Source: Cyanobium sp. ATX 6F1 (GTDB lineage Bacteria > Cyanobacteriota > Cyanobacteriia > PCC-6307 > Cyanobiaceae). Taken from it: 64,000 bases of DNA. The position numbers were made by a program, and so were the translations under genes. Position 1 is the stretch's first letter, and each line of letters opens with the position of its first letter. Where the stretch lies: the NCBI RefSeq assembly GCF_024346315.1, contig NZ_JAGQCS010000004.1:124001-188000 (forward strand), in the 5' to 3' direction. Below are positions 5,892-35,300 of the stretch, in pieces. Below the pieces are notes generated by a model. It was given only the letters and a program-made list of their open reading frames with translations, was not told the origin of the DNA and did no database searches.

Positions 5892-5899
5892 GGAGGCCC

Positions 5900-17413: not shown

Positions 17414-18691
17414 ATGGCACCCCTGATTCGGCCACTCATTTCCCTGGTTCTGCTGGCCTTGGTGGCTCCCAATGGCCCCGCCCGTTCGGCCACGCCCGTG
17501 GCGGTACCGGTCCCAGACGGCCCGGCCAAGACCGTCCTGGCACCGGCGGTCTACCGGCCGGGGATTCTGCGTCTGGCCTTCTCCAGCGCCCCACAAGCGG
17601 TCAACCCCCAGGAGAAGGCCCCACCGGGCGCCTCCACAAACGAGGGCTTCATCGATCTCAGCTTCGTTCCTCCCGAGGGCCCGGTGATCGGCAAGCGGGT
17701 GCAGCTGAACGTGAAGCAGTTCGCCGAGCTCCTCAAGGGCCTCTACGTGCGCCTGGCCCGGTTCGAATCCCTGGATGTGGGCAACCCAGCCTCACCCTCC
17801 CGGCGACTGCACGCCCTGTTGATCGCGCCGATCGAGCCTGAGCTGAAACAGCGGGGGATCACCACCCTGCTGATCTCGGTGGATGCCGGCCTCCAGGCTC
17901 TCCCCCTGGCAGCTCTCCACGACGGCAAGGCTTATTTCGGCCAGACCTACGCCTTTTCCATCACCCCGTCCCTGGGGCTGATGGTCAAGGATGTGCCCCT
18001 CGCCCAACCGGATAAGCGGGTGTTGAGTGCGGGTGCCTCGGTGTTCGAGGGGCTCTCCCCGTTGCCCTTGGTGCCCAAGGAACTGGCCAATACCTCGGCG
18101 CCCGGGCGCACGGATCTCTTCCTCAATCGGGCCTTCACCCCCGATGTGGTGCTGGTGAAGGCGGGCGATTCCCAGTACCAGCGCGTGCACGTGGCCACCC
18201 ATGCCGAATTCCTGCCCGGGGGGCCGGACAAGTCGATGATCTTCTCAGGGACGGGCCCAGTCTCCCTGGCGCGCTTTGCCGCCCTGCGGCAGCGACGCCA
18301 GGGGGTACCGCTGGATCTGTTCTCCCTGAGCGCCTGCCGTACGGCGCTTGGCAATTCAGATTCGGAGCTGGGCTTTTCCGGCCTGGCGTTGCAGTCGGGC
18401 TCCCGCAGCGCCCTGGGCACCCTCTGGTACGTGGATGATGTGGCTGCCGCCGCCTTCTTCATTCAGTTCTACCGGCATCTGGATCGCGGTCTGCCCAAGG
18501 CAGAAGCCCTCCAGCGCACGCGTTCGGCCTTCATCGATGGCCAGGTGCGCCTGCAGGGGGATCAGTTGCTGGGACCGGGCCCTCAGCCCCTGCTGACGGA
18601 TCTCACCCTCGCCGAGCAACGCCGGGTCAGCCGTGGTCTGCAGCATCCCTTTTATTGGGCGGGAATCGAGCTGCTGGGAACGCCCTGGTGA
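17414..18691 (+). CDS. Exported CHAT-domain caspase-like protein (CHAT1)
   Basis: The product has 425 residues. The signal peptide is MAPLIRPLISLVLLALVAPNGPARSA. An N-terminal domain (YRPGILRLAFSS, GFIDLSFVPPEGP, LLKGLYVRLARFESLDV) precedes the CHAT peptidase domain (ITTLLISVDAGLQALPLAAL). The catalytic pair is intact: His263 in HVATHAEF and Cys308 in LSACRTALG. It ends with FYWAGIELLGTPW, the usual CHAT C-terminus. CHAT proteins are clan CD cysteine proteases related to caspases and separase. Export is unusual for the defence-linked CHATs and suggests a periplasmic or surface target. ATG 17414 lies 4 bp after the tpsA1 stop, so the genes form an operon; the mature TpsA1, perhaps its helical tail, is an obvious candidate substrate (inference). 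Confidence 0.88.
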   Translation: MAPLIRPLISLVLLALVAPNGPARSATPVAVPVPDGPAKTVLAPAVYRPGILRLAFSSAPQAVNPQEKAPPGASTNEGFIDLSFVPPEGPVIGKRVQLNVKQFAELLKGLYVRLARFESLDVGNPASPSRRLHALLIAPIEPELKQRGITTLLISVDAGLQALPLAALHDGKAYFGQTYAFSITPSLGLMVKDVPLAQPDKRVLSAGASVFEGLSPLPLVPKELANTSAPGRTDLFLNRAFTPDVVLVKAGDSQYQRVHVATHAEFLPGGPDKSMIFSGTGPVSLARFAALRQRRQGVPLDLFSLSACRTALGNSDSELGFSGLALQSGSRSALGTLWYVDDVAAAAFFIQFYRHLDRGLPKAEALQRTRSAFIDGQVRLQGDQLLGPGPQPLLTDLTLAEQRRVSRGLQHPFYWAGIELLGTPW

Positions 18692-18748
18692 GTGGCGAGT
18701 TCGGTGGGCCAACTTAAGGTTGGATCTAGCTGATCAGGCGGTTCGCCC

Positions 18749-20608
18749 ATGACCGACACGGCCTTCTCCCGCCCCGCAGCTGCTCCGAGCGGGCCGTCGG
18801 ATCAGACCCTGGTGGAGATCCTGAACATCGCCACCGCCCTCAGCGGTGCCGGCGATCTGCGCACCCTGTTGCACCTGATCCTGACCAAATCCCGCCAGCT
18901 CACGGGCAGTGATGCCGGCAGCATCTTTTTGGTGGAGCGCGTGGATCAGCGCAAGGATCCTGGTGGTGTGGACAAGCTCTGGTTCGCGGTTTCCCAGAAC
19001 GCCAGCCTGGCGAGCCGATCGAGGCTGGCTGGTCAGCAGGATGACATCCATGAGGAGCTCTCCGATCTGCGTTTCCCGCTCACCTCCGAGCGCTTGGTGG
19101 GCTGGAGTGCCCTCACCGGCGAGGTGCTCAACATCCCCGACGTCTATCAGCTCGATCCAGCCCTGCCTTACCGCTTCGACAGCACCGTCGACAAGGAACT
19201 GGGTTACCGGGCCGTGTCGATGCTCACCGTGCCGATGCGCTCCACCTCAGGCGAAACGGTGGGGGTGATGCAGCTGATCAACCGCAAGATTGACCCCGCC
19301 ACCGTGATCAGCGCTGAAACGGCCCAGACGCTGGTGCGTCCGTTCGATGCCTTTGATCAGAGCCTGATTGAGGCCCTGGCCTCTCAGGCGGCGGTTTGCG
19401 TCGAGCGCACCCAGTTGCTGGAGGCCCAGCGGCAGCTGATCGATTCGATGATCACCCTGCTGGCGGGGGCCATCGATGCCAAGAGCCCCTACACCGGCGG
19501 CCACTGCGCCCGGGTGCCGGAATTGGCGCTGATGCTGGCCCGAGAGGCCGAAGAGACCACGGCGGGCCCCCTGGCTGAGTTCTCGCTCGGCGGAGAGGAG
19601 GACTGGCGTGAGTTCCGCATCGGCGCCTGGCTGCACGACTGCGGCAAGATCACCACCCCTGAATACGTGGTCGACAAGGCCACCAAACTTGAAACCAACT
19701 ACAACCGCATCCACGAAATCCGCACCCGTTTCGAGGTGCTGCTGCGGGATGCCCGCATTGTCTGGTTTGAAGGGGTGATCAACGGAGCGGATCGCGAACA
19801 GCTGGACAAGGCCTACAAGCAGCGGGAGGCAGAGCTCAAGGACCAGTTCACCTTCGTGGCTGAGTGCAACCTCGGGGGTGAGTTCCTGGGCCCTGAGCTG
19901 GTGGAGCGCCTGCATGCCATCGGTGCCCAGAGCTGGCAGCGCCATTTCGACAGTTCCCTGGGCCTGGCCTGGGAGGAGCTTTCACGCCACACCCAACTGC
20001 TTCAGACGCTGCCCGCGGAGGAGTCCCTGCTGGCGGATAAGTCGTGTCACATCATCCCCCGCGAGGACAGCCAGATCCCTGACGCCCGCTACGGCTTCAA
20101 GATGGAGGTTCCCGAGCACCTCTACAACCTCGGGGAACTGCACAACCTCTCGGTCTCCCGCGGCACCCTCACCGACGAGGAGCGCTACAAGATCAACGAG
20201 CACATCGTGCAGACGATCATCATGCTCGAGGCTCTGCCGTTCCCCGCCAATCTCTCGCGGGTGGCGGAGTATGCGGGTACCCACCACGAGACCCTCGACG
20301 GCAAGGGCTACCCGCGCAAGCTCACGGGCGAGCAGCTTTCGGTGCCGTCGCGGATCATGGCGATCGCCGACATCTTCGAGGCGCTCACGGCATCCGATCG
20401 CCCCTACAAGAAGGCCAAGTCGTTGTCGGAATGCCTCAAGATCCTGGCCGGCTTCCGCGACCGCCAGCACATTGACGCCGACCTGTTCGAGCTGTTCCTG
20501 CGCTCCGGCATCTACCAGAACTATGCCGATCTCTTCCTGCTGCCTGAGCAGATCGACGAGGTGGATGTGGAGATATTCCTGCGCCCAGCTGCCAAGGGCG
20601 GTAGTTGA
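18749..20608 (+). CDS. GAF / HD-GYP domain protein, putative c-di-GMP phosphodiesterase
   Basis: The product has 619 residues. Residues about 15-215 form a GAF sensor domain (TLVEILNIATALSGAGDLRTLL, DAGSIFLVERV, GYRAVSMLTVPMRS, VGVMQLINRK). The HD-GYP part begins near residue 235 (LLAGAIDAKSPYTGGHCARV). It has His296-Asp297 in WLHDCGKI, HHETLDGKGYP at residues 512-522 including Gly520-Tyr521-Pro522, and a DIFEALTASDRPYKK ending. An insertion of about 190 residues separates the two HD-GYP halves, longer than in minimal HD-GYP proteins. HD-GYP enzymes hydrolyse cyclic di-GMP and so favour release from surfaces. It starts 57 bp after chat1. A degenerate piece of its 5' end recurs at 31893. Confidence 0.88.
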   Translation: MTDTAFSRPAAAPSGPSDQTLVEILNIATALSGAGDLRTLLHLILTKSRQLTGSDAGSIFLVERVDQRKDPGGVDKLWFAVSQNASLASRSRLAGQQDDIHEELSDLRFPLTSERLVGWSALTGEVLNIPDVYQLDPALPYRFDSTVDKELGYRAVSMLTVPMRSTSGETVGVMQLINRKIDPATVISAETAQTLVRPFDAFDQSLIEALASQAAVCVERTQLLEAQRQLIDSMITLLAGAIDAKSPYTGGHCARVPELALMLAREAEETTAGPLAEFSLGGEEDWREFRIGAWLHDCGKITTPEYVVDKATKLETNYNRIHEIRTRFEVLLRDARIVWFEGVINGADREQLDKAYKQREAELKDQFTFVAECNLGGEFLGPELVERLHAIGAQSWQRHFDSSLGLAWEELSRHTQLLQTLPAEESLLADKSCHIIPREDSQIPDARYGFKMEVPEHLYNLGELHNLSVSRGTLTDEERYKINEHIVQTIIMLEALPFPANLSRVAEYAGTHHETLDGKGYPRKLTGEQLSVPSRIMAIADIFEALTASDRPYKKAKSLSECLKILAGFRDRQHIDADLFELFLRSGIYQNYADLFLLPEQIDEVDVEIFLRPAAKGGS

Positions 20609-20630
20609 GCGCTGATCGGGGATCCCCAAC

Positions 20631-22634
20631 GTGAGTGAACTGACTTCGGGGCAGGCCGGACCTGGGCAGGCGCAGCCTGCAGACCAGGGGATTGCAGCGG
20701 CGATCAATCGAGCCTTGGACGCCTTGGCCAAAGGAGAGGTGGCGCAGGCACGAACCCTGCTGGAGGAGGCCATCACGCTCGATCCAAGCCATCCGGCCCC
20801 CCGCCACAACCAGGCGGAACTGGAGTTCCGCACGGGCCAGATCGATCGAGCCCAGGCCCTGTTCGAGCAGCTTGTCAACGGTTGGCCGAGTTTTCTGCCC
20901 GCCTACCCCTCCTTTCTGGCCCTGCTGGAGCAACGCCAGGCCAGTGGGGTGGCGGCCTCAGCTGAGTTGCGGCCGGTGCTGCTGAACAACTTCGGCAATG
21001 CCCTGCTGGCTGCTGGCCAGATCGGGGCGGCTGAAGGGGCCTACCGCCAGGCCCTCGGCCTGCGGCCGGATTACGCCAACGCCCTCGCGAACCTCTCCAA
21101 TGCCCTGCGCCTGTTGGGACGGTTGTCGGAGGCGGAGCTGGCGGCCCGTGGGGCTCTGGCGTTGCAGGCAGGCCATGCCGGTGCCTGGGTGAACCTGGGC
21201 TGCGCCCTCGAGGAATTGGCCTTCCACGCCGAAGCCGAGGCCTGCCATCGCCGCGCCCTGGAGCTCCAGGGCGACCAGCCGGAGGCCCTGCACAACCTGG
21301 GCAGCGGCCAGCTGATGCGGGACCTCTACCGCTCCGACCTCAGTGAGGCCGAGTTGCTGGAGCGCCACCGCGCCTGGGGGGAGGCCCTGATGGCCAGGAA
21401 GGCCCCTGGGGTTGTCAGCCCAGCGCCCCAGGATCAGACCCGGCCCCCCAGCCCCAGCGGCAAGCCACGACTGGGGTTCCTCTCCAGCGACCTGCGCCGC
21501 CATGCGGTGAGCACCTTTCTGGAGCCGTTGCTGGAGCACCTGGACCGGGAGCGCTACGAGGTGGTCTGTTTCGCCAGCCAGCAAGAGAACGATGAAGTGA
21601 GCGAGCGGCTGCGGCGGTTGCCCCTGGAGTGGCACCCCTGCCATCACCTCGATGACGGCGACTTGGCCAGCTTGATCCGCAGCGAAGGCATCGATCTGCT
21701 CGTCGAGCTCAATGGCCACACCCGTGGCACCCGTTTGGGGGCGCTGGCCACACGGCCGGCAACGGTCCAGGTCTCCTGGCTCGGTTACCCCTTCCGCACC
21801 GGGCTGCCCACGATTGACTACCGCCTCAGCGATGCCTGGGTGGAGGCTGGCTCGGGTCAGGATTGGCAGGATCCAGATCAGGGCAAATCTGAGCGTGCGG
21901 TGCTGATGGACCGCTGCCAGTTCGTCTACCGCCCGGCGTGCGAAGCCCCGGAGGTTTCCCCGTTGCCGGCCCTGGAGGCGCCGGGGATCACGTTTGGATC
22001 CCGCAGCAACCTCAACAAGCTCAGCCGTGAGGTCGTTGCCCTCTGGAGCCGCTTGCTGCTCAGCTGCCTGGGCAGCCGCCTGCTGTTGCAGTACAGCCAG
22101 CTGGAGGATCCCTTTTGGCGCGGCCGCATCCTGGGGGCGTTCTCCGCCCATGGGGTGCCGGCAGAGCGGCTGGCGCTGCTCCCACGCAACCCCAACCATG
22201 GGCACATGGGGGCTTACCACGCCATCGACATCGCCCTCGATCCCTTCCCCTACAACGGTGTGACCACCACCTGCGATGCCCTCTGGATGGGTGTGCCCGT
22301 TGTGGCACTGCGTGGCCAGCTGCCCCAGGCGCGCGGCGGTGTGAGCCTGCTGGAGGCCCTGGGCCGTCCCGAGTGGATTGCCGATGATCCGGAGGCTTAC
22401 CTGGCGATTGCCCTGAAGCTCGCGGCGGATCCCGTGGGGCTCAGCGCCGAGCGCAAGGGTCTGCGAGCCCTTATGGAAGCGTCGCCCCTGCGGCAGGAGG
22501 CGGACCATGCCCGGGCGTTCGAGCGTTGTGTGGAGCGCATGCTCGCAGGGCCAGCCGGTAGAGATCAGCCGGGAGGGAAAGGGGCGCGTCAGCGGGTGCC
22601 CCGGCCGCGCAACGTTCGCTCAGGTCAAGCCTGA
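20631..22634 (+). CDS. TPR / GT41 glycosyltransferase, OGT-SPINDLY-like
   Basis: The product has 667 residues and a GTG start 22 bp after the HD-GYP stop. Residues about 20-240 are TPR repeats (ALDALAKGEVAQARTLLEEA, NNFGNALLAAGQIGAAEGAYRQ, ALANLSNALRLLGRLSEAEL). The catalytic GT41 half begins at PRLGFLSSDLRRHAV and contains ELNGHTRGTRLGALATRPA, VQVSWLGYPF, IDYRLSDAWVE, ITFGSRSNLNKLS and DPFPYNGVTTTCDALWMGVP. GT41 enzymes transfer a sugar from a nucleotide donor to Ser/Thr, or to Asn in the HMW1C subgroup. Lying downstream of a TPS adhesin it may glycosylate it. The last 164 bp overlap the convergent GT2-like gene; the last 30 residues look non-conserved. Confidence 0.88.
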   Translation: MSELTSGQAGPGQAQPADQGIAAAINRALDALAKGEVAQARTLLEEAITLDPSHPAPRHNQAELEFRTGQIDRAQALFEQLVNGWPSFLPAYPSFLALLEQRQASGVAASAELRPVLLNNFGNALLAAGQIGAAEGAYRQALGLRPDYANALANLSNALRLLGRLSEAELAARGALALQAGHAGAWVNLGCALEELAFHAEAEACHRRALELQGDQPEALHNLGSGQLMRDLYRSDLSEAELLERHRAWGEALMARKAPGVVSPAPQDQTRPPSPSGKPRLGFLSSDLRRHAVSTFLEPLLEHLDRERYEVVCFASQQENDEVSERLRRLPLEWHPCHHLDDGDLASLIRSEGIDLLVELNGHTRGTRLGALATRPATVQVSWLGYPFRTGLPTIDYRLSDAWVEAGSGQDWQDPDQGKSERAVLMDRCQFVYRPACEAPEVSPLPALEAPGITFGSRSNLNKLSREVVALWSRLLLSCLGSRLLLQYSQLEDPFWRGRILGAFSAHGVPAERLALLPRNPNHGHMGAYHAIDIALDPFPYNGVTTTCDALWMGVPVVALRGQLPQARGGVSLLEALGRPEWIADDPEAYLAIALKLAADPVGLSAERKGLRALMEASPLRQEADHARAFERCVERMLAGPAGRDQPGGKGARQRVPRPRNVRSGQA

Positions 22635-23499
22635 GGTCCGTCAGGGTGTCAAGGGTGGGCCCCAGGGCCCGCTGCAGGCTGTCATCGACGGCCACCCGCA
22701 GCCCATCCGCCGTTGGTTGCGTGGGATCGCCCCCGGGCAGCCAGCTGTGGCGGGCCCAGAACGATTCGAGGCTCCTCAGCTCCTCCAATCGCGCGATCAT
22801 CTGGTGTTGCCAGTTGTACCAGGGAGCCATGCCGTCGGCGATCGTGCGGCGGCCCATCGCCGCCTTGCGCGCCAGCCGCCCGCGGCTGAGCAGGGGCAGG
22901 TGGGCGCACCTCAGGTGCTGGCGGTGGGCGAACAGGCTCTGGGCGCGGATGGATGGGCGCAGTTCGTGGGCGCCGGCCGCGAGCCAGGCCGAGGCGGTGT
23001 TGCGGAAGATCACCTTGCCACCGAACGGCAGGCGGAAATAGTTGAACGAACCCGCGATGATCGCTTCCACCAGACGTGGATCCAGCGAGGGTGAGAAGGG
23101 TTGATCCGGCAGGGAGCGCACCTGAAGAACGCGGTAGTGATTGAGGTTGGTCTCATCAAAATCCGACGTGGAAAGCCAGTTTTCCACCTGGTAATGCAGG
23201 GCGTTGATGGTGTCGGGCAGGCTTTCAATCAGCTCCCGTAGCCCTGACGGAGCGATCAGAATTTCATCGGCATCAAAGGGGTAGAACCACTCGGGAGCGG
23301 AGGCCTGGGCCACCTCCACCAGGGCGTTCATGAACGCCTCTTCGATGAAAGCTTCCTCCTCGAAGCGCACCACATGGATTCGTGCACCCAACGGCGACGC
23401 CTGCAAGGCCGCCAGGCCAGTGGCGGTGCCATCGCTGCTGCCGTGGTCGAGCACATAGGCCACATCAACGTGGTGCTGGAGGGCGTACACCAGCGCCAC
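22471..23499 (-). CDS. GT2-like glycosyltransferase; true start probably upstream
   Basis: The frame gives 342 residues from GTG 23499. It has the GT-A features HGSSDGTATGL (nucleotide-sugar region) and WFYPFDADEILI with the metal-binding DAD, then FRLPFGGKVIFRN and HRQHLRCAHLPLLSRGR, typical of large-cyanobacterial GT2_4-type enzymes. The frame stays open upstream to a TAA at 23575-23577 and encodes PRIIGLLKVKNEWPLAAV, the expected first beta strand of the fold, but with no ATG, GTG or TTG there. The start is therefore either a rare ATT/ATC codon near 23539-23544 or the gene is 5'-truncated. It overlaps the GT41 gene tail-to-tail by 164 bp. A damaged copy lies at 31955-32178. Confidence 0.75.
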   Translation of the reverse strand: MALVYALQHHVDVAYVLDHGSSDGTATGLAALQASPLGARIHVVRFEEEAFIEEAFMNALVEVAQASAPEWFYPFDADEILIAPSGLRELIESLPDTINALHYQVENWLSTSDFDETNLNHYRVLQVRSLPDQPFSPSLDPRLVEAIIAGSFNYFRLPFGGKVIFRNTASAWLAAGAHELRPSIRAQSLFAHRQHLRCAHLPLLSRGRLARKAAMGRRTIADGMAPWYNWQHQMIARLEELRSLESFWARHSWLPGGDPTQPTADGLRVAVDDSLQRALGPTLDTLTDLRLDLSERCAAGAPADAPLSLPADLYRLALRACAPHNARTPGHGPPPAAGATLP

Positions 23500-23693
23500 C
23501 GCCGCCAGGGGCCACTCGTTTTTGACCTTCAGCAGGCCAATGATGCGCGGCGCTGGGGAGATGGCTTGAAACCGTTAGGGGGCAAGGATAGGTGCGCCAT
23601 TGGGCACGACGATGAAGCCATGTTTAGTAGCGAGGGCTACGGATTAGCTGCTGCAGTGATGCAGCACTTAGCAGATTCTCAGTGATCAATTAT
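23414..23693. repeat. Duplicated segment, copy 1: GT2 5' end plus tpsA2 leader
   Basis: About 280 bp here are nearly identical to 32018-32297. The copy starts inside the GT2-like coding region (around its SDGTATGL codons), runs through the start of that gene and stops shortly before the tpsA2 start. Only a handful of substitutions are visible, for example GTACACCAGCG against GTGCACCAGGG. This block marks one edge of the tandem duplication that created tpsA3 or tpsA2. Confidence 0.9.
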
Positions 23694-23758
23694 GGATCAA
23701 CCGCTAAAAAAGCTGATTGGGCTTTAGCTTCTGGAGCTAGTCGCGAACGGCCCCACCC
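23578..23758 (+). promoter_or_regulatory. tpsA2 upstream region with conserved hairpin
   Basis: This is a 181 bp AT-richer region before tpsA2. It contains a perfect hairpin, GCTGCA-GTGA-TGCAGC at 23650-23665, and a long block (GTTTAGTAGCGAGGGCTACG onward to TCTCAGTGATC) that is identical upstream of tpsA3. It also lies between divergent GT2 and tpsA2, so it may serve both. I could not place -35/-10 boxes or a good ribosome binding site: the nearest GGAG is about 23 bp before the ATG. Confidence 0.45.
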
Positions 23759-26700
23759 ATGGCGCTGCGTCATGCCATCGGTCTTTGGGCGCTAATCCTG
23801 GCTGGAGCGCCTGCCATGGCGGGCGAAGTGAGCGCCAGCGGCGGCGCCCTGGGCCTGGGCACCGCGGTGAACGGCCAGCTGGGCGGCAGCTGCGCATCGG
23901 GCCTCTGCCAGGTGGGCGGCGGCACGGCGGCGGGCCGTAACCTTTTTCACCGCTTTTCCGCCTTCGACACGCGCGGCGGCATCACGGGGGTGAATTTCTC
24001 CACCGGCGGCGCCCAAAACGTGTTCGTTGGGGTGACGAGCCCCCTGGGCAGCTTCATCGACAAACTTGTCTCGTTCTCTAGCCCCGGCAACCTGTTCTGG
24101 CTCTCCCCGGGCGGCATCGCCATCAGCGGCGCCGGCGGTTTCGCCAACATCCAGCAGCTGAACCTGAGCACCGCCACCGGCTGGCGCGTGGGCAACGGTG
24201 TATTCGATGCGGCGGGCACCACAGCCGGCCAGGCGGCCCTGCTCAGCGGCACACCGGGCCTAGGGGCGGCTGGTGCCCTCACCGATCCGGCCAGCCTGGC
24301 GGCGCTCGGCCTGCAGAAGAACGGCGATCTGAGCCTTTCAGACGGCCTGCTCACCGTCGATCAGAGCCTGCTGCTCGATGCCCAGGGCGGCAACGTGCTG
24401 CTGCAGGCGGCCGGGATCCAGGCGCCCGGGGCCCAGGTGGCGATCACCGGGGCCTCGGTTTCACTGCAATCCAGCACGGTGGATGTGAGCGGCTCCAGCG
24501 GCGGCGGCACGGTGCGCCTGGGCGGTGGCCTGCTGGGAGCCGATCCCACGATCACCAACGCCCAACGCACGAGCGTGGATGGGGCCAGCGCGGTCCGCGC
24601 CGATGCCACGGCCCAGGGTTCGGGCGGCACCGTGGTGGTCTACGGCACCGACAGCATCAAGGTGGAAGGCGCCCTCTCGGCCCGCGGGGGCCCCCAGGGC
24701 GGCGATGGCGGCCTGGTGGAAACCTCCAGCCGCGGCGAGCTGGTGGTGAACCAGGCGCCGGACGCTTCCGCCCCGAAGGGCCAAGGCGGCACGTGGCTGA
24801 TCGATCCCAACAACGTCACGATCCAGGCAACGGGGCCCGACAGCAACGTCACCGCCCCGCCGGCCGTGATCACCACCGGCGACAGCGCGGTGCTCACCAC
24901 CAGCACCCTTGAGACCGCGCTCAATGCCGGCACCAACGTGAGTGTGGTGACCAGCGCCGGCGGCACCCAGGCGGGCGACATCACCGTGGCCTCACCGATC
25001 AGCAAAACGGCGGGGGGTAACGCCACGCTCACGCTCACGGCCTACAACAACATCAACCTCAACGCGAACATCAGCAGCAGCGTTGGACAGCTGAATCTCA
25101 CGCTCAACCCCGACAGTGATGCCAGTGGCGGTGGGACCACCAGCCTGGCTACTGGTGCCACCCTCGCCCTCAATGGCGGCACGGCGGCCTTCAACGGCAG
25201 CACTTCCTTGGCGGGCACGATCAGCGGCAGCACGATCACCGGGTCAGAGATTGCCTCAAGTAACGCAACGCTGAGCAACATCACGTTCGGCTCGAATCTG
25301 TCGACCACAGGGGGGTTGAATCTTTCTGGAACGATCGGGCTGGCCAATGGAATCACGTTGAACAAAGGCATCAGCAGCGACTGGTATGCAGCCCCGGGCA
25401 CGCAGTTAACGACTGGCGGGACTGCTGTGATCAACAGCAGCGGCGGTAACATCATTGCGGGCAATGGCGGTCCTGGAACGTTCGGAATCGGCAGCGGCGT
25501 GACGCTGCAGGGCTATGGCACGTTGACGACCAACTCATCGGCAACGCTGAACAACCAGGGCACGATTCGTGCCTCCACGGCTGGGCAGGTGTTCTCGATT
25601 AAACCAACGACGCTGAACAACACGGGTACCATTGCTACCACCTTGGGAAGTATCGGGATCTTCCCCACCAATCCCTTCTCCAATGCTGGTGTTCTAGAGA
25701 TCGGCCCGAACACCAGCATCAGCGCGAAAAGCTTCACCAATGCGGCGGGCGGCATCATCCGCGGCGGTTTAGGTCTGGCGCAGGGGAGCCTCTTACTCCA
25801 AGGCGATAGTACTTCTCCTTCTGCTACTCTCACCAACCTCGGCACCATCAGCCCCGGAGGCGATGGCGTCGCGGGCTGGCTGACCCTGTCTGGGGGCGAC
25901 CTTGTCCTGGGCAGCACCTCAGTCCTTAATCTCGAAATTGGCGGGCCCATTAATGGCAGCCAATTCGACTGGATAACAGTTAGTGGCAACGTGAGCCTCG
26001 GTGGCACGATCAACACCCAACTTATCAATGGTTTTAGCCCAAGCCTTGGCCAGAGCTTCGATGTGATCTCAAACGACCCATTAACGGTCACAGGCAGCTT
26101 TGCTACCTCGAATCTGCCCTCGGGGTTCAACGGCGCGATCGTGGGCAGCGTCTACCGCCTCACCAACTCAGGTCTGAGCTGTCTTGGCATTTGCTGGGAT
26201 GGCGGTGACGGCACCACCGCCTGGGAAAACCCGGCGAATTGGACAAGTGATCAGTTGCCCACCACCAGCGATGTGGCCTACCTGAACCTGGTGGCTGGTG
26301 TCGATGTGACCCTCTCCAGCAGCCAGAGCATCAAGGGGTTGAACAGCAACGCCGGCAACAACCTCACGATCAATCCTGGTGGCACGTTGACGCTGAATGA
26401 TCCAGGAACAAGCTCGCTATTGGATGGTGGGCTGACCATCAGTGGTGGCACGTTGACCACCAAAGGAGCCTTAACACTGAACGGATCCTCGGTGTGGGCC
26501 GGCGGCACCCTTGATGGAACGGGAACGCTGACGGTGTCTCCAGCGGCCAAATTGGTGGTGAACGGCGGCGGCACCTATGGCTTGAGCCAACTGACGAATC
26601 AGGGGATAGTGCAATGGACGAGCGGCAATGTTGATTTTAGTGCAAATGGAGTGATCACTAACTCACTTTTGTTCGACGTGCAGACCGATAGCATCTGGGG

Positions 26701-29700
26701 CAACAAAGGCTTGTTCGCGATTGAGTTCAATAACCTGAACGGAATACTGCGCAAGAGTGCTGGTACGGGTACTGCGACCTTGGGAGCAGGGGGCAATCGA
26801 GTGAATCTGACGAACCGCGGATCAGTGGAGGTGAGCGCGGGAACGCTGGCGATCAGCCCTGCGTCGGCAATGCAGAACAATGGCATAATCGAAATTGCAT
26901 CGGGAGCAACTTTCCAGGTTGCTTCAGGAGGCCTCACCAACAACGGCATTCTTTCGGGCTTTGGCACCATTGATGTGGGCGCCGGCAATACGCTCACCAA
27001 CCTCTTGTTCATCTACCCCGGCAGCGCTAGCACTAGTACTGCGGGAACCCTGAGTCTCATCGGCGACCTAGCTCTGGGCGGGGCCTCCGTGCTCAACCTC
27101 GACCTGGGCGGTGCCACACCCGGTAGCCAATACGACCGGCTAGCGGTTTCGGGCAACGTGAGCCTTGGTGGCACGATCAACACCCAGCTGATCAATGCCT
27201 ACGCCCCTAGCCCCGGTCAAAGCTTCGATGTGATCACATCCGGCGGAACGGCCACCGGCAGCTTTGCCAGCTCGAATCTGCCTTCGGGTGTCAACGGGGC
27301 GATCGTGGGCAGCGTCTACCGCCTCACCAACTCCGGCCTGAGCTGCCTGGGCGTCTGCTGGGATGGCGGTGGCGGCACCACCGGCTGGGAAACCCTGGCG
27401 AATTGGACAAGCGATAAGTTGCCCACCACCACCGATGTGGCCTACCTGAATCTGGTAGCTGGTGTCGATGTGACCCTCTCCAGCAGCCAGAGCATCAAGG
27501 GGTTGAACAGCATCTCCGGCAACAGCCTCACGATCAATTCCGGGGGGGCGTTGACGCTGAACGATCCAGGAACGGCCTCCAACCTTGCTGGCAATCTCAC
27601 GGTCAGTGGCACCCTGAACATTCAATCGCCCCTCAGCGCATCGTCGTTGGCCCTCAGTGGCGGAGCGTTGGCCGGCAGCGGCAGCCTCACGGTTTCTAAT
27701 GCCTTCTCGCGTACGGGCGGAACTACGGGCACCACCCTCACCGGGGTCACGCTCAACCAGGCCAGCGGTGATCTCAGCCCGGGCGCCTGGACCGTTAATG
27801 GACCGGTGTCGTTTACGGCGGCGGCAGGAAACCTGCTCGTCGATGGACCCGTGACGGCCACCACCCTGCTGGGCCGCGGTGCCACAGGGCTGACGCTGCA
27901 GCCCGGTGTCGTGCTGAACGCCACGGCAAGCACGGGGAGTGCCTTGGTGCTCGATGCCGGCACGGGCGCCTTCACCAACCTGGCCGGCGCCGGGGCGCTA
28001 GCGGTGGCACCAGGGGCGCGCTGGTTGGTCTATTCCGCCAGCCCCCTCACCGACAACCGCGGCGGCTTGAGCTATGCCTTCAAGCAATACGGCATCACTT
28101 ACGGCAGCGCGAGCCCTGTATTGGGCGCCGGCAATGGCTTCCTCTACAGCGCCACGCCAACGGTCACGGCCAGCCTCACCGGCAGCATCAGCAAGACCTA
28201 CGACGGCACCGTGGCCGCCCCGATCGCCGCTGGCAACTATCTCGTCAGTGGCGCGATCGATGGCGACACCGTACAGGTGAACAATTCCACGCTCGGCACG
28301 TACACAACGGCCGGGACCGGGGGGCGTGGTGCGAAGGATGTTGGCAGTGGAAAGGATGTCTCCGTTTCTGGGGTGACGATTTCCGGCGCCAGCGAGGGTG
28401 CGGTTGCGGTGTATGGCTACCAGTTGGCCAGCTCAACAGCGAGCGGTACCGCCCTGGGCACGATCAATCCGCTCGCGCTCGCCGGTGCCGCGATTGCGCC
28501 CTCCAGTTCCATCTACGGCGCGGCCCTCAGCCCCGGTGCAGTCAGCTTCTCCAATCTCTTCTCCGGCGATCTCGTCGGTTCTGCCACCTCCGTCAATACC
28601 TCAACCCTCAGCACCGGCGGCACCCCCATCGTTGGTACCTACACCCAAACGGCCAGCGCCACCCTCAGCGGTAGCGATGCGGCGAACTACAGCTTCTCAG
28701 GCTTCACATCAACTCCCAACTACACGATCAATCCCCTCAGCCTCTCGGTCACGGGCGTTACCCCCCTCAGCAAGACCTACGACGGCACCACTCAGGCCAC
28801 CCTCAACAATACCGCCGCCGCCGTGTCAGGCCTCTTAGGCACCGACGGTGTGACGCTTAACGGCCTAACCGCAACCGGTCAATTCGCCGATCCCAACGCC
28901 GGCCTGGCCAAGCCCGTTGCCGTCTCCGGCTTCGTGATCAGTGGCCCCGATGCGGCCAATTACACCCTTCTTCAGCCGGGCGGCCTGACCGCCGACATCA
29001 CCATCCGCCCCCTCGGCACCTGGAGCGCCTCCACCCCTGGCAACTGGAGCGATGCGGCCAACTGGGATGTCCTGCCCAGTGGCTCTAACGTGGCCGTCGT
29101 GGTGATCCCCGTGGGTAGCGGCGCCCTCACTTACGACGCCGCCGCCGGTAGCACCAACCTGCAGAGCCTCATCATCGACCAGAGCCTCAGCATCACCGGT
29201 GGTTCCCTGGCGGTGAGCGGTGCGACATCCGTGGCCAGCGGCGCCAGCTTGAGTCTCAGTGGTGGCAATTTTTCGACCACCTCCCTGAGCAACCAGGGGC
29301 TGGTGAACGGCAGCAGTCCGCTCGTGGTGAATGGCTCCTACACCGAGAGCGGCGGCAGTCTCGGTAGCGGTTTCTCCAGCGTTGCGATCACCCAGGCCAG
29401 CGGCGACCTCAACCTCAGCAGCGTGGGATCCACGGGCCCGGTGAGCCTGACCAGCAGCGCTGGCGCCCTCAACCTCAGCGGCGCTGTGAGCTCAGCCGGT
29501 GGGCCCATCAACCTGATCGCCACCGGCGCCACGGATCTTTCCTCCACCGCGTCGCTCATCAGCCCCGGCGCTCTGATCTCCGTGAGCAGCGGCGGTCCGC
29601 TGAGCCTGAACGGCGCTCGCATCGATGCCAGCGGAGCCAGTGCCGCCGGCACGGTGCAGCTCGATGGCAGCAGCATCACCCTCACCAACGCCACGGTGAA

Positions 29701-30520
29701 CACTTCTGGTGCCAGCGAAGGTGGTTCGATTCAGCTGGGCCTGAAATCCCTGCCCAGTAGCGTTACGCTCACCAACTCCAGCCTGGTGGCGGATCCCCCT
29801 GGTCTTGGCGGTTCCATCTCCATCGACGGCCTTGCCATCGCCTTGGTTGGCTCCACCTTGAACGTGGTGGGCTTGAGCGGCGGTTCCATCCTGCTGGGTT
29901 CTGCCAATACCGCCACCTTGAGCCTCGATGCTGCCACCTCTCTCGTGGGCGGTGGTGATGGCACCTTCAGCCTGTTCGGCGGTTCGATTCTCAACAACGC
30001 CAGCATCATCGGTGGCCGGTTGTTTTTGAATGGGGTGGGATTGGGCGCTGTGAGTGTGTTGCCTAATCTGCCCTTGAGCGCTGTTTTGTCCCCCATCGTC
30101 GCGCTGCCCTCTGAGGTGGCGTTCCAGCTCAGCGTCGATCTCGGTCAGAGCTCTCCGCTCTCCAGCGTTGATTACACGGCGCCGGGTTCGTTGCTGGTCG
30201 CCCAGTGGGAGCAGCTGGGGATCGATCCGCTTTCTATCACCCTCACGGAATCGGCCTTCCTCTATGCCAATTTCTTATTGAATGAAGGTCTTTCAACCAG
30301 TGGTCTGTGGACGTTCGATCCATCCGTGCAGCAGCTCACCCCCTCACAGGTGGAAGAGCAGTTCACCGCTTCCGAGCAGCGAGCGATGGAAGCAACGGCG
30401 GCGAAACTAGGTCTTGACCCCACTGACGGCCTATTGGCGCCTACTCCTGCTCAATTGCAGGCGAGCCTGCAGAAGGTGATCAAAGCTGTGCGCGGGCGGA
30501 TCCGAGGAGGTCAGCCATGA
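23759..30520 (+). CDS. TpsA2: giant TPS exoprotein with YDG/MBG modules
   Basis: The product has 2253 residues. The signal peptide is MALRHAIGLWALILAGAPAMA. Its TPS domain (about 25-175) is almost identical to that of TpsA1 and TpsA3. In order there follow a GGDGGLVETSSRGEL / WLIDPNNVTI segment, beta-helix-like filler, two WDGG/NW modules (about 784-880 and 1177-1267; SGLSCLG.CWDGG, LPTT.DVAYLNLV), a YDG module (about 1470), one MBG-like module (about 1574-1659), a second YDG module (SKTYDGTTQATL, about 1660), and a WSASTPGNWSDAANW module. The C-terminal tail reads PSQVEEQFTASEQRAMEATA then LQKVIKAVRGRIRGG. YDG and MBG modules are known from large bacterial adhesins. Its TGA overlaps the ATG of chat2 (ATGA), implying translational coupling. 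Confidence 0.9.
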   Translation: MALRHAIGLWALILAGAPAMAGEVSASGGALGLGTAVNGQLGGSCASGLCQVGGGTAAGRNLFHRFSAFDTRGGITGVNFSTGGAQNVFVGVTSPLGSFIDKLVSFSSPGNLFWLSPGGIAISGAGGFANIQQLNLSTATGWRVGNGVFDAAGTTAGQAALLSGTPGLGAAGALTDPASLAALGLQKNGDLSLSDGLLTVDQSLLLDAQGGNVLLQAAGIQAPGAQVAITGASVSLQSSTVDVSGSSGGGTVRLGGGLLGADPTITNAQRTSVDGASAVRADATAQGSGGTVVVYGTDSIKVEGALSARGGPQGGDGGLVETSSRGELVVNQAPDASAPKGQGGTWLIDPNNVTIQATGPDSNVTAPPAVITTGDSAVLTTSTLETALNAGTNVSVVTSAGGTQAGDITVASPISKTAGGNATLTLTAYNNINLNANISSSVGQLNLTLNPDSDASGGGTTSLATGATLALNGGTAAFNGSTSLAGTISGSTITGSEIASSNATLSNITFGSNLSTTGGLNLSGTIGLANGITLNKGISSDWYAAPGTQLTTGGTAVINSSGGNIIAGNGGPGTFGIGSGVTLQGYGTLTTNSSATLNNQGTIRASTAGQVFSIKPTTLNNTGTIATTLGSIGIFPTNPFSNAGVLEIGPNTSISAKSFTNAAGGIIRGGLGLAQGSLLLQGDSTSPSATLTNLGTISPGGDGVAGWLTLSGGDLVLGSTSVLNLEIGGPINGSQFDWITVSGNVSLGGTINTQLINGFSPSLGQSFDVISNDPLTVTGSFATSNLPSGFNGAIVGSVYRLTNSGLSCLGICWDGGDGTTAWENPANWTSDQLPTTSDVAYLNLVAGVDVTLSSSQSIKGLNSNAGNNLTINPGGTLTLNDPGTSSLLDGGLTISGGTLTTKGALTLNGSSVWAGGTLDGTGTLTVSPAAKLVVNGGGTYGLSQLTNQGIVQWTSGNVDFSANGVITNSLLFDVQTDSIWGNKGLFAIEFNNLNGILRKSAGTGTATLGAGGNRVNLTNRGSVEVSAGTLAISPASAMQNNGIIEIASGATFQVASGGLTNNGILSGFGTIDVGAGNTLTNLLFIYPGSASTSTAGTLSLIGDLALGGASVLNLDLGGATPGSQYDRLAVSGNVSLGGTINTQLINAYAPSPGQSFDVITSGGTATGSFASSNLPSGVNGAIVGSVYRLTNSGLSCLGVCWDGGGGTTGWETLANWTSDKLPTTTDVAYLNLVAGVDVTLSSSQSIKGLNSISGNSLTINSGGALTLNDPGTASNLAGNLTVSGTLNIQSPLSASSLALSGGALAGSGSLTVSNAFSRTGGTTGTTLTGVTLNQASGDLSPGAWTVNGPVSFTAAAGNLLVDGPVTATTLLGRGATGLTLQPGVVLNATASTGSALVLDAGTGAFTNLAGAGALAVAPGARWLVYSASPLTDNRGGLSYAFKQYGITYGSASPVLGAGNGFLYSATPTVTASLTGSISKTYDGTVAAPIAAGNYLVSGAIDGDTVQVNNSTLGTYTTAGTGGRGAKDVGSGKDVSVSGVTISGASEGAVAVYGYQLASSTASGTALGTINPLALAGAAIAPSSSIYGAALSPGAVSFSNLFSGDLVGSATSVNTSTLSTGGTPIVGTYTQTASATLSGSDAANYSFSGFTSTPNYTINPLSLSVTGVTPLSKTYDGTTQATLNNTAAAVSGLLGTDGVTLNGLTATGQFADPNAGLAKPVAVSGFVISGPDAANYTLLQPGGLTADITIRPLGTWSASTPGNWSDAANWDVLPSGSNVAVVVIPVGSGALTYDAAAGSTNLQSLIIDQSLSITGGSLAVSGATSVASGASLSLSGGNFSTTSLSNQGLVNGSSPLVVNGSYTESGGSLGSGFSSVAITQASGDLNLSSVGSTGPVSLTSSAGALNLSGAVSSAGGPINLIATGATDLSSTASLISPGALISVSSGGPLSLNGARIDASGASAAGTVQLDGSSITLTNATVNTSGASEGGSIQLGLKSLPSSVTLTNSSLVADPPGLGGSISIDGLAIALVGSTLNVVGLSGGSILLGSANTATLSLDAATSLVGGGDGTFSLFGGSILNNASIIGGRLFLNGVGLGAVSVLPNLPLSAVLSPIVALPSEVAFQLSVDLGQSSPLSSVDYTAPGSLLVAQWEQLGIDPLSITLTESAFLYANFLLNEGLSTSGLWTFDPSVQQLTPSQVEEQFTASEQRAMEATAAKLGLDPTDGLLAPTPAQLQASLQKVIKAVRGRIRGGQP

Positions 30521-31797
30521 TCCGGCCAGCACGTCATTGGCCGAGCCGTTACCTGGTGGCCTCGCTGCCGTTGTTCCTCGGTCTCCCTGTAACGACACCA
30601 GTTGCCTTGGCGGCTCCGCCAGCCGCCGCTGTGCAGCTGGCGCGCGCTTCCGATGGTGCTTCCCCCTTCAATCCGGCCCTCTACAACCCGGCGATCCTGC
30701 GCATCGGCTTCAGCGAAGCCAAGGGCAAGTCCGCCAATCCCGAGGCCGATTCCTTCCTCGACATCACCTTGGTGCCACCCGATGGGGATGTGCATGGTGC
30801 CCGCAGTGAGGTTTCGCTCAAGAGCTTCAACGAGCTGCTGCGCAAGCTCTATGGCCAACTGGCGAGTCAATCGCCGCTGGATGTCAACGATCCGAACTCA
30901 CCGGCTCGGCAGCTGTATTCGATTCTGATCCAGCCGATTGCCGCGCAGCTGCAAAAGCACAAGATCACCACGCTGCTGATCTCCGCCGATGCGGGGCTGC
31001 AGGCTGTGCCGTTCGCGGCCCTCCACGACGGCCAGAGCTACCTGGGTGAGCGCTACGGCCTCGGCATGACGCCGGCCCTGGGGCTCACCAAGCTGGCAGT
31101 GCTGCCCGAGAAAGCCCAACCACAACTGCTGGCGGCCGGGGCCTCCGAGTTCGTGGGCCTCAATGCCCTGCCTCTGGTGCCCCAGGAGCTCGACCGGGTG
31201 GGCAAGGGCAGGGCGAACCAGAGCTTCCTCAACAGGAGCTTTACGCCCCAAGTGCTGCTCCAGAAGGCGGGCGATCCACTGATCGATCGGGTGCACATCG
31301 CCACCCACGCCGAATTCCTGCCCGGCGGGCCAGCGGCGGCTCGCCTGTACTCAGGCACCGGTCCGATGTCCCTGCGTCAGTTATCCCAGCTGCGCCAACG
31401 CCGCGGTGAGGGTCAGCTGGATGTGTTCAGCCTCAGCGCCTGCCGCACCGCCCTCGGTGATGCCGACAGCGAACTGGGTTTCGCGGGGTTGGCGCTCCAG
31501 GCGGGCTCCCGCAGTGCGATCGGCAGCCTCTGGTACATCGACGATGTGGCCACTTCGGCGCTGTTCGTGCAGTTCTACCGCTACCTGGACCAGGGCCTTC
31601 CCAAGGCCGAGGCGCTGCAATTCACCCGGCGCGCCATGGCGAACGGCCGGATGCGGCTCGTGGGCGACCAGGTGATCGGGGCCGGGGGCGATGTGCTCCT
31701 CTCCAAACTGACCACGTCCCAGCAACGTCGCATCAGCACAGGTCTGCAGCACCCCTTCTTCTGGGCGGGCATCCAGTTGCTGGGAACGCCTTGGTGA
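30517..31797 (+). CDS. Exported CHAT-domain caspase-like protein (CHAT2)
   Basis: The product has 426 residues and is a paralogue of CHAT1 along its whole length. A signal peptide (LVASLPLFLGLPVTTPVALAA) is followed by the N-terminal domain (YNPAILRIGFSEAKG, FLDITLVPPDGD, LLRKLYGQLASQSPLDVNDP) and the CHAT domain (ITTLLISADAGLQAVPFAAL). The dyad is intact: His264 in HIATHAEF and Cys309 in LSACRTALGDADSE. It ends with FFWAGIQLLGTPW. The start ATG 30517 overlaps the tpsA2 stop by 4 bp, so synthesis of both products is coupled. The target is unknown; a cis-encoded TpsA is the simplest guess. Unlike the chat1 locus, what follows is gene debris, not an intact HD-GYP gene. Confidence 0.88.
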   Translation: MIRPARHWPSRYLVASLPLFLGLPVTTPVALAAPPAAAVQLARASDGASPFNPALYNPAILRIGFSEAKGKSANPEADSFLDITLVPPDGDVHGARSEVSLKSFNELLRKLYGQLASQSPLDVNDPNSPARQLYSILIQPIAAQLQKHKITTLLISADAGLQAVPFAALHDGQSYLGERYGLGMTPALGLTKLAVLPEKAQPQLLAAGASEFVGLNALPLVPQELDRVGKGRANQSFLNRSFTPQVLLQKAGDPLIDRVHIATHAEFLPGGPAAARLYSGTGPMSLRQLSQLRQRRGEGQLDVFSLSACRTALGDADSELGFAGLALQAGSRSAIGSLWYIDDVATSALFVQFYRYLDQGLPKAEALQFTRRAMANGRMRLVGDQVIGAGGDVLLSKLTTSQQRRISTGLQHPFFWAGIQLLGTPW

Positions 31798-32178: not shown

Positions 32179-32297
32179 TTAGGGGGCAAGGATAGGTGCG
32201 CCGTTGGGCAAGTCGATGAAGTCATGTTTAGTAGCGAGGGCTACGGATTAGCTGCTGCAGTGATGCAGCACTTAGCAGATTCTCAGTGATCGATCAA
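32018..32297. repeat. Duplicated segment, copy 2: GT2 5' end plus tpsA3 leader
   Basis: This is the partner of 23414-23693. The near-identity runs from the SDGTAAGL codons of the GT2 remnant across its start and through the hairpin GCTGCA-GTGA-TGCAGC (32254-32269) to the TCTCAGTGATC block. Past it, the two tpsA leaders diverge for about 60 bp before similarity resumes in the signal-peptide codons. Confidence 0.9.
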
Positions 32298-32351
32298 GGA
32301 TCAACCGCCAAAAGGTCTGACATAGGCCTTAGTTTCTTGAAACGGACTCGA
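32182..32351 (+). promoter_or_regulatory. tpsA3 upstream region with the shared hairpin
   Basis: A 170 bp leader before tpsA3 conserves the block and hairpin (32254-32269) found before tpsA2, so both genes probably share transcriptional or post-transcriptional control. No clear -35/-10 pair or ribosome binding site could be assigned by eye. Confidence 0.45.
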
Positions 32352-35300
32352 ATGGCCCCATCCATCGCGCTGCGTCATGCCATCGGCCTTTGGGCTCTGA
32401 TCCTGGCGGGGGGTCCTGTCGTCGCCGGCGAAGTGAGCGCCACCGGCGGCGCCCTGGGCCTGGGCACCGCGGTGAACGGCCAGCTGGGCGGCAGCTGCGG
32501 CTTAGGCCTGTGCCAGGTGGGCGGTGGCACGGCAGCAGGCCGCAACCTCTTCCATCGCTTTTCCGCCTTCGACACGCGCGGCGGCATCACGGGGGTGAAT
32601 TTCTCCACCGGCGGCGCCCAAAACGTGTTCGTTGGGGTGACGAGCCCCCTGGGCAGCTTCATCGACAAACTTGTCTCGTTCTCGAGCCCCGGCAACCTGT
32701 TCTGGCTCTCCCCGGGCGGCATCGCCATCAGCGGCGCCGGCGGTTTCGCCAACATCCAGCAGCTGAACCTGAGCACCGCCACGGGCTGGCGGGTGGGCAA
32801 TGGTGTGTTCGATGCGGCGGGCACCACAGCCGGTCAGGCGGCCCTGTTGAGCGGAGCGCCTGTGAGCGGCCTTGCCGGTGCGGTGAACGATCCGGCAACT
32901 CTTGCGGCCCTGGGGATCCAGAAGAACGGCGATCTCAGCATCGCCGGCGGTCTGCTGACGGTGGATCAGGGCCTGCTGCTGGATGCCCAGGGGGGCAACG
33001 TGCTGCTGCAGGCGGCGAGGCTGCAGGCGAAGGGCGGGTCGGTGGAGATCCAGGGCCAGTCCGTTCGGCAGGACGCACCGATCGAATCCAGCGGCACGAG
33101 CGGTGGCTCGGTGACGATCAACGCGGCGGGCGCTCTCACCAACGGCGCACCGATCCAGGCCAACGGGTCCAGTGCTGGCGGCACCATCAACCTGCAGGCC
33201 GGCACCAGCCTCACGAGTTCGTCCGCGATCACCGCCACGGGTACGGGGCCAATGGCCAAGGGCGGCACGATCGAGCTCACGGCCCCCAGCGTGACCCTTG
33301 CGGCGGCCCAAGTGGATGCCAGCGGCGCCGGCGGCGGCGGTGTGATCAGGGTGGGCGGCGGGGTTCAGGGCAGCCCCCTCAGCCTGGGGGGCGCCAACGC
33401 CATCAACACCATGGTGGACAGCAGCAGCAGCTTGAAGGCCGATACCACCCAGGCGGGCAACGGCGGCCAGGTGGTGGTGTGGGCTGAGAGGGCCACCCTG
33501 GTGGATGGGGCGATCAGCGCCCGCGGCGGCCCGGCGGGCGGTGATGGCGGCTTCGTGGAAACCTCAGGCCGCGAGCAATTGGCGGTCAGTCGGGCGCCGG
33601 ATGCCTCGGCCCCTTTGGGCAAGGGAGGCACCTGGCTGCTGGATCCCAACAACCTCACGGTGAATGCCAGCGGGCCCGACAGCAATGTCAGCGGCTTCCC
33701 CAACGCAACCACCACAGGCGACAGCGCCGTCATCGCCGCCTCCACAATCAATGCAGCCTTGAACGCGGGCACCAGCGTGAGCCTGGCCACCAGTGCCGGT
33801 GGTGCCCAGGCGGGTGACATCACGGTCTCCGCCCCGATCAGCAAAACGGCCGGCGGCGCTGCCTCCCTCAGCCTGAGCGCCCACAACAACATCAACCTCA
33901 ATGCCAACATTTCCTCATTAGCGGGTGCATTGAACCTGAATTTGGTTGCCAATTCGGACAACGTCGGCGGTGGATCCGTACAGAGGCAGACTTCTGGTAC
34001 CTTCATCGACTTGAACGGCGGTAACTTGAACCTTGCTGGCAATGGCGACTTCACGCTAATTGACGACTTTCGGAATCTTCGGTTTGACAAAAGTGGAACA
34101 GGTTCCTACCTGGCGCCCTTCTTCGTTCGGTTGACCGGCGTGACGATTGGCACCGACATGACCTTCAGTAACGAAGTGGGAATCGTCAACGATCTGCTGC
34201 TGGCCAATGGTGTGACGGTGAACAAAGAAGCGAACATCTGGCGCTTTGGAACCACCGGTCTGCGCACCCTGGGGCTGGCCCCAGGGGCCACCAGCGCCAC
34301 CGTCATCAGCAGCGGGGGCTTCATTCTTGCCGGCCAGGGGGTCATCGGCCAGACCCTGACGATCGGCCCTGGCGTGACGCTGCAGAGCTCCGGCGCAGGC
34401 ACCACGCAGCTGAGAGACAGCACCGCCAGCACCATCATCAACAACGGCACAATCGCTTCCACCACTGGTGGCACCTGGTCGATTTTGCCCGCCGGGTTCA
34501 TCAACAACGGTGCGGTGACAGCCAACAACGGCACGGTGTCGATCAGTTCGACGAGTTGGAGCAATGGGAGCACGGGTGTCTTCAATGTTGGCCCTTCGGG
34601 CACATTGAATCTGGGCGGTACGTTCACCAATGCCAACCCAGGTGCCTCCAATCGCACCGGGGGTTCGGTCTTCATTCCCGGCACCTTCGACCTGGCGGGT
34701 GCCACGTTGGATGTGGGCTCGGCGGGCCTGTTCGGCAGCGGTGGGCTGACGCAGCTCAGCGGCACGCTTTTAGGCGGCACGCTGATCAACACCGATACCA
34801 CCCCTGTGCTGACCTCGGGCTTAGGCACGCTCAATGGGATGACGATCGGCTCCAACGTGGGCATCAACGGTACGTTGCGCATCGCCAACGATCTGCTGCT
34901 GACTAATGGCGTGACAGTGAACAAGGGAGCGAATAATTGGAACTTCGTCACCACAGGAGTTCGTACCCTCGGCCTGGCTCCAGGCGCCAGCAGCGCCACG
35001 GTCAGCAGCAGTGGTGGCGCCATCTTCGCCGGGTCGGGGGTCAGCGGCCAGACCCTGACGATCGGCCCTGGCGTGACGCTGCAAAGTTCCGGCGCAGGCA
35101 CCACGACGCTGACCAACAGCTCTGCGGCCCCAATCATCAACAACGGCACAATCGCTTCCACCACCGGCGGCACCTGGTCCATTACGCCCACCAGCTTCAC
35201 CAACGGCGCCACAGGAACACTCGTTGTTTCAGCGGGCTCCACGCTCGCTACCGCTAACAACTCCTTCTCCAGCGATGGCGCGATCCAGGGCAGCGGCACC

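Follow-up and report, generated by a model that had tools for sequence, protein, structure and literature searches.

Why do genes for predicted exported proteases of the CHAT type stand directly behind the genes for giant surface proteins? The question is raised by a 64-kb stretch of DNA from Cyanobium sp. ATX 6F1 (here called the window; positions 124,001-188,000 of contig C4 of a 2.96-Mb genome), in which two such genes, CHAT1 and CHAT2, each follow the gene of a TpsA, the exoprotein of a two-partner secretion (TPS) system. A sequence-only reading had proposed that each CHAT processes or releases the TpsA made just before it, perhaps at a conserved C-terminal tail. In our analysis the functional pairing of CHAT with the preceding TpsA was strongly supported by the fused and split gene forms found in relatives. 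Processing of TpsA by CHAT is plausible, and a different role is proposed below for the tail.

CHAT1 and CHAT2 are coupled to the preceding TpsA genes

The two pairs and the third TpsA of the window are arranged as follows.

7825-17409, plus strand: TpsA1, open reading frame (ORF) of 3194 amino acids (aa), likely start ATG 7882, with 27 DUF5650 repeats (PF18888)
17182-17406, plus strand: C-terminal tail of TpsA1, matched by the fused-only and the split-tail profile (see below)
17414-18691, plus strand: CHAT1, predicted exported CHAT protease of 425 aa (PF12770, E 1.4e-47, 162.9 bits against a cut-off of 24)
17414-17491, plus strand: predicted Sec signal peptide of CHAT1, ~26 aa with the end ARSA (hydropathy test; cleavage site placed by eye)
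18200-18202 and 18335-18337, plus strand: codons of the CHAT1 dyad, His263 and Cys308, located in the sequence
23759-30520, plus strand: TpsA2, ORF of 2253 aa
30293-30514, plus strand: C-terminal tail of TpsA2 (fused-only profile, E 2.6e-15)
30517-31797, plus strand: CHAT2, predicted exported CHAT protease of 426 aa (PF12770, E 1e-52, 179.8 bits against a cut-off of 24)
31306-31308 and 31441-31443, plus strand: codons of the CHAT2 dyad, His264 and Cys309, located in the sequence
32286-43229, plus strand: TpsA3, 3647 aa, likely start ATG 32352, without a CHAT gene behind it
43017-43223, plus strand: C-terminal tail of TpsA3 (fused-only profile, E 3.5e-16)

The TpsA1 stop codon (17407-17409) is separated from the CHAT1 start codon at 17414 by 4 bases, and the CHAT2 start codon at 30517 shares an ATGA with the TpsA2 stop (ORF end 30520), just as the sequence-only reading had described. 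Such coupling is beyond chance, given 15 further split pairs, one of them elsewhere in the same genome. The genome encodes five CHAT proteins: three short ones, each behind a TpsA (two in the window and one on contig C11), and two long ones on contig C12. In 13 of the 15 further split pairs, which include the C11 pair, stop and start overlap (by 4 bases in 10 pairs and by 1 base in 3); in the other two, CHAT starts 4 and 73 bases after the tpsA stop. Scores for the TPS domain (PF05860, curated cut-off 33.5) were 33.6 bits with neighbours for TpsA1, barely above the cut-off, and lay below it for TpsA2 (27.9 bits, E 2.7e-6) and TpsA3 (32 bits, E 1.5e-7). A TpsB partner is present, the window copy being one of three in the genome. 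TpsA1 consists mostly of DUF5650 repeats; TpsA2 and TpsA3 bear YDG domains instead.

Both CHATs begin with a predicted Sec signal peptide. The 11-residue hydropathy maxima of their N termini are 3.15 (CHAT1) and 2.27 (CHAT2), compared with 1.95 for the 95th percentile of internal stretches, and their n-regions are positive. N-terminal hydrophobicity exceeded the 95th percentile of the same proteins' internal stretches in 16 of 17 split CHATs, which supports export of the split form as a prediction. The claimed intact dyads (His263/Cys308 and His264/Cys309) were likewise confirmed. In an alignment of 157 CHAT rows, His and Cys were intact in all 150 rows that cover both dyad positions (the other 7, in which one of the columns is missing, are fragments or second stretches), and dN/dS (the ratio of nonsynonymous to synonymous substitution rates) was 0.13-0.27 for four CHAT pairs. 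Together, these values argue against a purely structural CHAT.

PF12770 was the only Pfam domain in CHAT1 and CHAT2; Pfam detected neither tetratricopeptide repeats (TPR) nor a LapG-family protease domain in them, so that a LapG-like action is possible without membership in that family. Among the PADLOC defence models, CHAT2 had no match and CHAT1 matched only BovA, over 126 residues at 22 bits. An assignment to a defence system was dropped, as neither PADLOC nor NCBIfam gave a useful match.

CHAT is fused to the exoprotein in many relatives

We searched 200 genomes of the order and obtained matches in 74, most of the weak ones being long CHAT proteins of another kind. Regions around each match of at least 98 bits outside the window were taken as family regions; 58 were fetched, and two with the long kind of CHAT (L050 and L053) were left out. 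In 33 of the remaining 56, CHAT forms the C terminus of a TPS exoprotein encoded in one frame (1111-3679 aa; that of L059 reaches its contig start), in which a custom profile finds a TPS domain at the N terminus. In 15 of 56, CHAT is a gene of its own right behind a TPS or tail-bearing ORF. The rest comprise one stand-alone CHAT (L106), four broken copies (L100, L102, L104, and L105), and three unassigned regions, two at a contig start (L074 and L091) and one without a recognised TPS domain (L092). The broken copies are frameshifted or truncated, so that the TpsA-CHAT unit is subject to decay and not to duplication alone.

A quick tree was built from 93 CHATs, without the broken and unassigned regions and a duplicate copy in L097. 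Within the family it requires no fewer than five switches between the fused and the split form, although many of its inner branches are weak. Beyond the family, genomes were ranked by score and the best match of each of the first 40 was taken (class level). Here, 23 of 40 regions were fused (20 by custom profile; L196, L197, and L199 by Pfam), one was split (L210), two were cut by a contig end (L209 and L220), two held proteins of 696 and 732 aa in which no TPS domain was found (L200 and L201), and 12 held short CHATs without a TPS neighbor. PF05860 scored far above its cut-off in all 11 long class-level fused N termini tested. Repeated fusion of otherwise separate genes, whether in both directions or in one, is strong evidence of joint function. 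Judged by gene architecture, this is one unit in two forms: CHAT is joined to the exoprotein as its C-terminal domain, or it is a coupled, exported partner.

Three of the proteins recovered deserve separate mention. In the fused TPS-CHAT frame of Synechococcus WH7803 (L094/L168; 2216 aa, CHAT at about residues 1841-2216), a long array of acidic repeats separates exoprotein and CHAT, and in the class-level fused protein of L221 a DUF4347 domain sits between TPS and CHAT. A CHAT 52% identical to CHAT2 lies on a contig filed under a Crocinitomicaceae metagenome-assembled genome (L154), which is probably a misbinned picocyanobacterial contig.

The TpsA tail matches the pre-CHAT segment of fused exoproteins

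TpsA1, TpsA2, and TpsA3 have a C-terminal tail in common, which aligns with the segment immediately before CHAT in the fused relatives. In a profile comparison, the split tails matched the pre-CHAT segment of family fused proteins with a probability of 97.5 (E 7e-12). To avoid circularity, a profile was built from fused proteins only (33 rows, none of the source genus). It matched the extreme end of TpsA3 (E 3.5e-16), TpsA2 (2.6e-15), the C11 TpsA (1.1e-12), and TpsA1 (7.6e-5; residues 3129-3183, compared with 3120-3194 by the split-tail profile), and thus found the tail in all four CHAT-type TpsAs of the genome. The same profile had no match in the two further TpsAs that the genome encodes, on contigs C2 and C3, each of which lies beside its own TpsB and is without a CHAT. 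The segment of the fused family also matched the class-wide pre-CHAT module (probability 84, E 8e-6). TpsA3 has a second, partial copy of the tail at 42708-42797, ~75 residues before the terminal copy, as if its C terminus had been duplicated.

Predicted structures gave the module a place in the protease. For the fused protein of a relative (L068), an AlphaFold model covering the last 480 residues had a mean predicted local distance difference test score (pLDDT) of 89.5 and a predicted template modeling score (pTM) of 0.90. The module helices (residues 23-45 and 58-73) were mostly confident: block means over the module were 97, 94, 81, 86, and 97, then 78 at residues 71-80, with 90 or more in blocks 21-40 and 61-70. 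Values below 50 occurred only at residues 94-98, in the stretch joining module and CHAT. The CHAT2 model (pLDDT 86.4, pTM 0.84) has the CHAT/separase-type fold, pseudo-caspase plus active-caspase. Compared with solved structures, the two predicted models matched TPR-CHAT/Csx29 (VIA Z 22-29), separase (15-25), and then gingipains, DdvA, and caspases; the individual CHAT2 scores were 26.1 to TPR-CHAT 8d9g (302 residues, 3.3 Å) and 24.4 to separase 5fc2. The CHAT sequence profile A3 hit no solved-structure chain at E 0.01, the relationship being visible by fold comparison only.

The match to Csx29 (8EEY) started at residue 342 in the fused model, which has the module, and at 421 in the CHAT2 model, which lacks it; with Craspase chains it began at ~306 and ~397, respectively. 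The interval from 342 to 421 spans the activation region AR2 of Csx29 (aa 356-411), whose movement is reported to relay target-RNA binding to the catalytic pair (PMC10028731), and by range the TpsA tail therefore takes the place of AR2. A helix-by-helix equivalence and a contact with the protease are what we infer from this position. More than a mere cleavage site, the tail is thus probably a part that the protease lacks and its partner supplies. That it is conserved, as the sequence-only reading held, stands; since it is homologous to the pre-CHAT segment and matches the N-terminal helices by fold range, docking on CHAT, or switching it, accounts for this conservation, which does not have to point to a cut site.

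The units lie near putative cAMP genes

The remaining features of the window that bear on the units are listed below.

1470-2951, minus strand: cyclic-nucleotide-binding MscS-type channel, a conserved neighbor near tpsB
3990-6014, minus strand: CHASE2 adenylate/guanylate cyclase, a conserved neighbor near tpsB
5900-7624, minus strand: TpsB outer-membrane transporter (PF03865, 53.5 bits against a cut-off of 22.7; POTRA domain PF08479)
18749-20608: GAF-HD protein (HD_5), starting 57 bases after CHAT1
22471-22634: tail-to-tail overlap of a GT41/TPR glycosyltransferase (plus strand) and a GT2 family ORF (minus strand), between both TpsA-CHAT units
46577-48391 and 49252-51144: two further CHASE2 cyclases, downstream, which bring the total in the window to three

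CHAT1 is followed by the gene for the GAF-HD protein, which we take to be possibly a cyclic-di-nucleotide phosphodiesterase, and CHAT2 by TpsA3. In the 56 family regions, homologues of the cyclase and of TpsB were each found in 43, of the MscS-type channel in 21, and of the GAF-HD protein in 13; at the class level, the cyclase occurred in only 1 of 40 regions.

The window is evidently of the kind of Syn_GI122, an island module of marine Synechococcus and Cyanobium that is described as combining secreted CHAT proteins and uncharacterised surface proteins with adenylate cyclases and a cyclic AMP (cAMP)-regulated mechanosensitive channel (PMC7522525). The co-occurrence of CHAT with cAMP genes, found together here as on that island, is therefore not new, and the remark of the sequence-only reading that exported CHATs are little studied, while fair, has to allow for secreted CHATs already in print. 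Two-partner secretion, a fusion, a tail, or a mechanism are not mentioned in the passage on Syn_GI122.

A proposed dedicated protease for the exoprotein

TpsAs exit through TpsB, and some are reported to retain a C-terminal part in the periplasm for cutting by a protease (PMC8263021, PMC5422565). The best reading of the locus, to which we give a probability of roughly 0.45, is that the TPS exoprotein has a separase-like CHAT dedicated to it, which, in the periplasm, would dock the tail, hold TpsA at the surface, and cut it for trimming or release. TpsA and CHAT would both reach the periplasm via Sec. TpsA would then thread outward through TpsB, its C terminus last, and the helical tail would stay or pause in the periplasm and dock on CHAT, completing the protease fold on its N-terminal side. 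Tail and CHAT, folded together, would retain TpsA at the surface until CHAT, positioned or activated by the tail, cuts TpsA in cis, perhaps in a signal-dependent manner. With a Sec signal as its only targeting feature, a split CHAT is expected in the periplasm, and a fused CHAT doing the same job should meet that compartment too, which is the reason for placing the pause of the tail there. The reading builds on what was observed: CHAT and TpsA are paired and have been fused and split, export signals are present, the dyad is invariant, the tail is homologous to the pre-CHAT segment, and the predicted fold is that of a separase-type protease; docking in trans, protease activity, TpsA as the substrate, release, and any signal are what we infer in it.

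Known systems offer partial models. CdrA of Pseudomonas aeruginosa, a TpsA, is released from the surface when periplasmic LapG cuts its periplasmic C-terminal tail (PMC5422565), which serves as the model for the proposed action of CHAT; in the present units, CHAT takes the part of LapG as the candidate protease, and its coding sequence lies within the exoprotein gene or in the coupled gene after it. FhaB of Bordetella undergoes regulated processing of its C-terminal part by DegP and CtpA in the periplasm and by SphB1 at the surface (PMC8263021), but these proteases are described as general or encoded elsewhere (SphB1: PMC5422565), and none is a CHAT. A 2017 review likewise has maturation protease genes appearing outside TPS operons (PMC5422565). 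With Csx29/TPR-CHAT of type III-E CRISPR (Craspase) and eukaryotic separase, the CHATs of the window share the dyad and, in predicted models, the protease fold. Those proteases are cytoplasmic, TPR-bearing, and controlled by RNA or securin, whereas the window CHATs are predicted to be exported, are tied to an exoprotein, and have no TPR by Pfam.

Several observations weigh against a dedicated pair of this kind. In the 12 class-level regions and the one family region noted above, no TPS protein stands next to CHAT, which in these cases can function without a neighboring TpsA. TpsA3 bears the tail although no CHAT gene is paired with it. A direct comparison of the split tails with the class-wide module gives a weak match (probability 12, E 0.0025), so that the link runs via the fused family proteins. 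Finally, the structural aligner reports end points only, which makes the correspondence of tail and AR2 one of alignment range, and the fused model is of a relative and not of a window protein.

A more tentative proposal, which we consider possible but on balance doubtful, is a substrate-gated split protease. Here, the activation region, in the place of Csx29 AR2, would have moved to the exoprotein tail; CHAT would be competent only once the tail arrives, and the state of the tail (tension, full translocation, or a cAMP-linked signal) would decide between anchoring and release. Because the split runs exactly along the border of activation region and catalytic lobes, several TpsAs could share a single CHAT, the tail-bearing TpsA3 being an example.

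Rather than cutting its own TpsA, CHAT might belong to a sensor, in which binding or breakage of the fibre is relayed via the tail to CHAT, which then cuts another periplasmic or membrane protein and feeds a cAMP circuit. The frequency of cyclase (43/56) and cyclic-nucleotide-gated MscS channel (21/56) in the family regions speaks for such a role, as does Csx29, which upon activation via the corresponding region is reported to cut another protein (PMC10028731), and so does the fold match of the predicted models to the anti-sigma factor DdvA (Z ~20; no paper listed in a search on DdvA and CHAT names DdvA). Since the cyclase neighborhood is missing in 39 of 40 class-level regions and thus not general, we regard a sensor as unlikely. 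We rate it as less likely still that TpsA is a stick presenting or injecting CHAT into other cells (a competitor, a grazer, or a phage-infected neighbor), in the way of the CdiA toxin. Like the CdiA/BcpA proteins of contact-dependent growth inhibition (CDI), the fused exoproteins are TpsAs with an enzyme domain at the C terminus, and giant surface proteins of marine Synechococcus have been classed as interaction proteins (PMC4949707). A delivered effector fits the fused form but not the split CHATs, which have their own Sec signal and no visible outer-membrane route, and the CHAT-bearing C terminus is conserved rather than polymorphic. No immunity gene was seen either: in the regions compared, no gene occupies a constant place and strand after CHAT, and the commonest downstream gene varies in both, CHAT1 being followed by the GAF-HD gene and CHAT2 by TpsA3. 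The gene of ~130-150 aa found most often behind fused CHATs, presumably similar to DUF3307, was rejected as a candidate, since it lies at many distances, on either strand, and also upstream, and looks like a chromosomal neighbor.

That CHAT is a structural plug or anchor for TpsA, its proteolysis secondary or lost, would account equally well through docking for the pairing and the tail homology; we consider it improbable in view of the His and Cys kept in every one of the 150 rows with both columns. Stand-alone exported CHATs do exist, as they would if CHAT were a general exported protease and a mere operon neighbor unlinked to TpsA, but the fusions (33/56), the adjacency (15/56), and the repeated changes between fused and split forms leave this very little credit.

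Implications for cyanobacterial surface proteins

Secreted CHATs beside cAMP genes have been in print since 2020, in the account of Syn_GI122 (PMC7522525); a linkage to TPS was not found in the literature searched. Full-text searches of open-access literature found no paper connecting the CHAT domain with two-partner secretion in cyanobacteria, with filamentous hemagglutinin, or with the haemagglutination activity domain; public domain-architecture tables may well list TPS-CHAT fusions. Term searches detected no mention of CHAT in the main texts of three exoproteome papers (PMC4949707, PMC5839243, and PMC7994388) or in the searched text of a metacaspase survey (PMC3501461). What appears to be new is an exoprotein of the TPS type whose separase-like protease is either built in or coupled and has its presumed activation region on the exoprotein.

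A protease of the separase/Csx29 fold, as predicted, is fused or coupled to an exoprotein in many cyanobacteria, including marine picocyanobacteria. The CHAT fold would thereby acquire an extracytoplasmic role, and nature would provide a split separase-like protease with the presumed activation region on its partner. Synechococcus WH7803, which has the fused form, is reported to be mutable by CRISPR (PMC10651935) and would make the release of surface proteins by ocean cyanobacteria testable. A giant surface protein that comes with its own protease suggests a self-contained switch for anchoring, trimming, or release.

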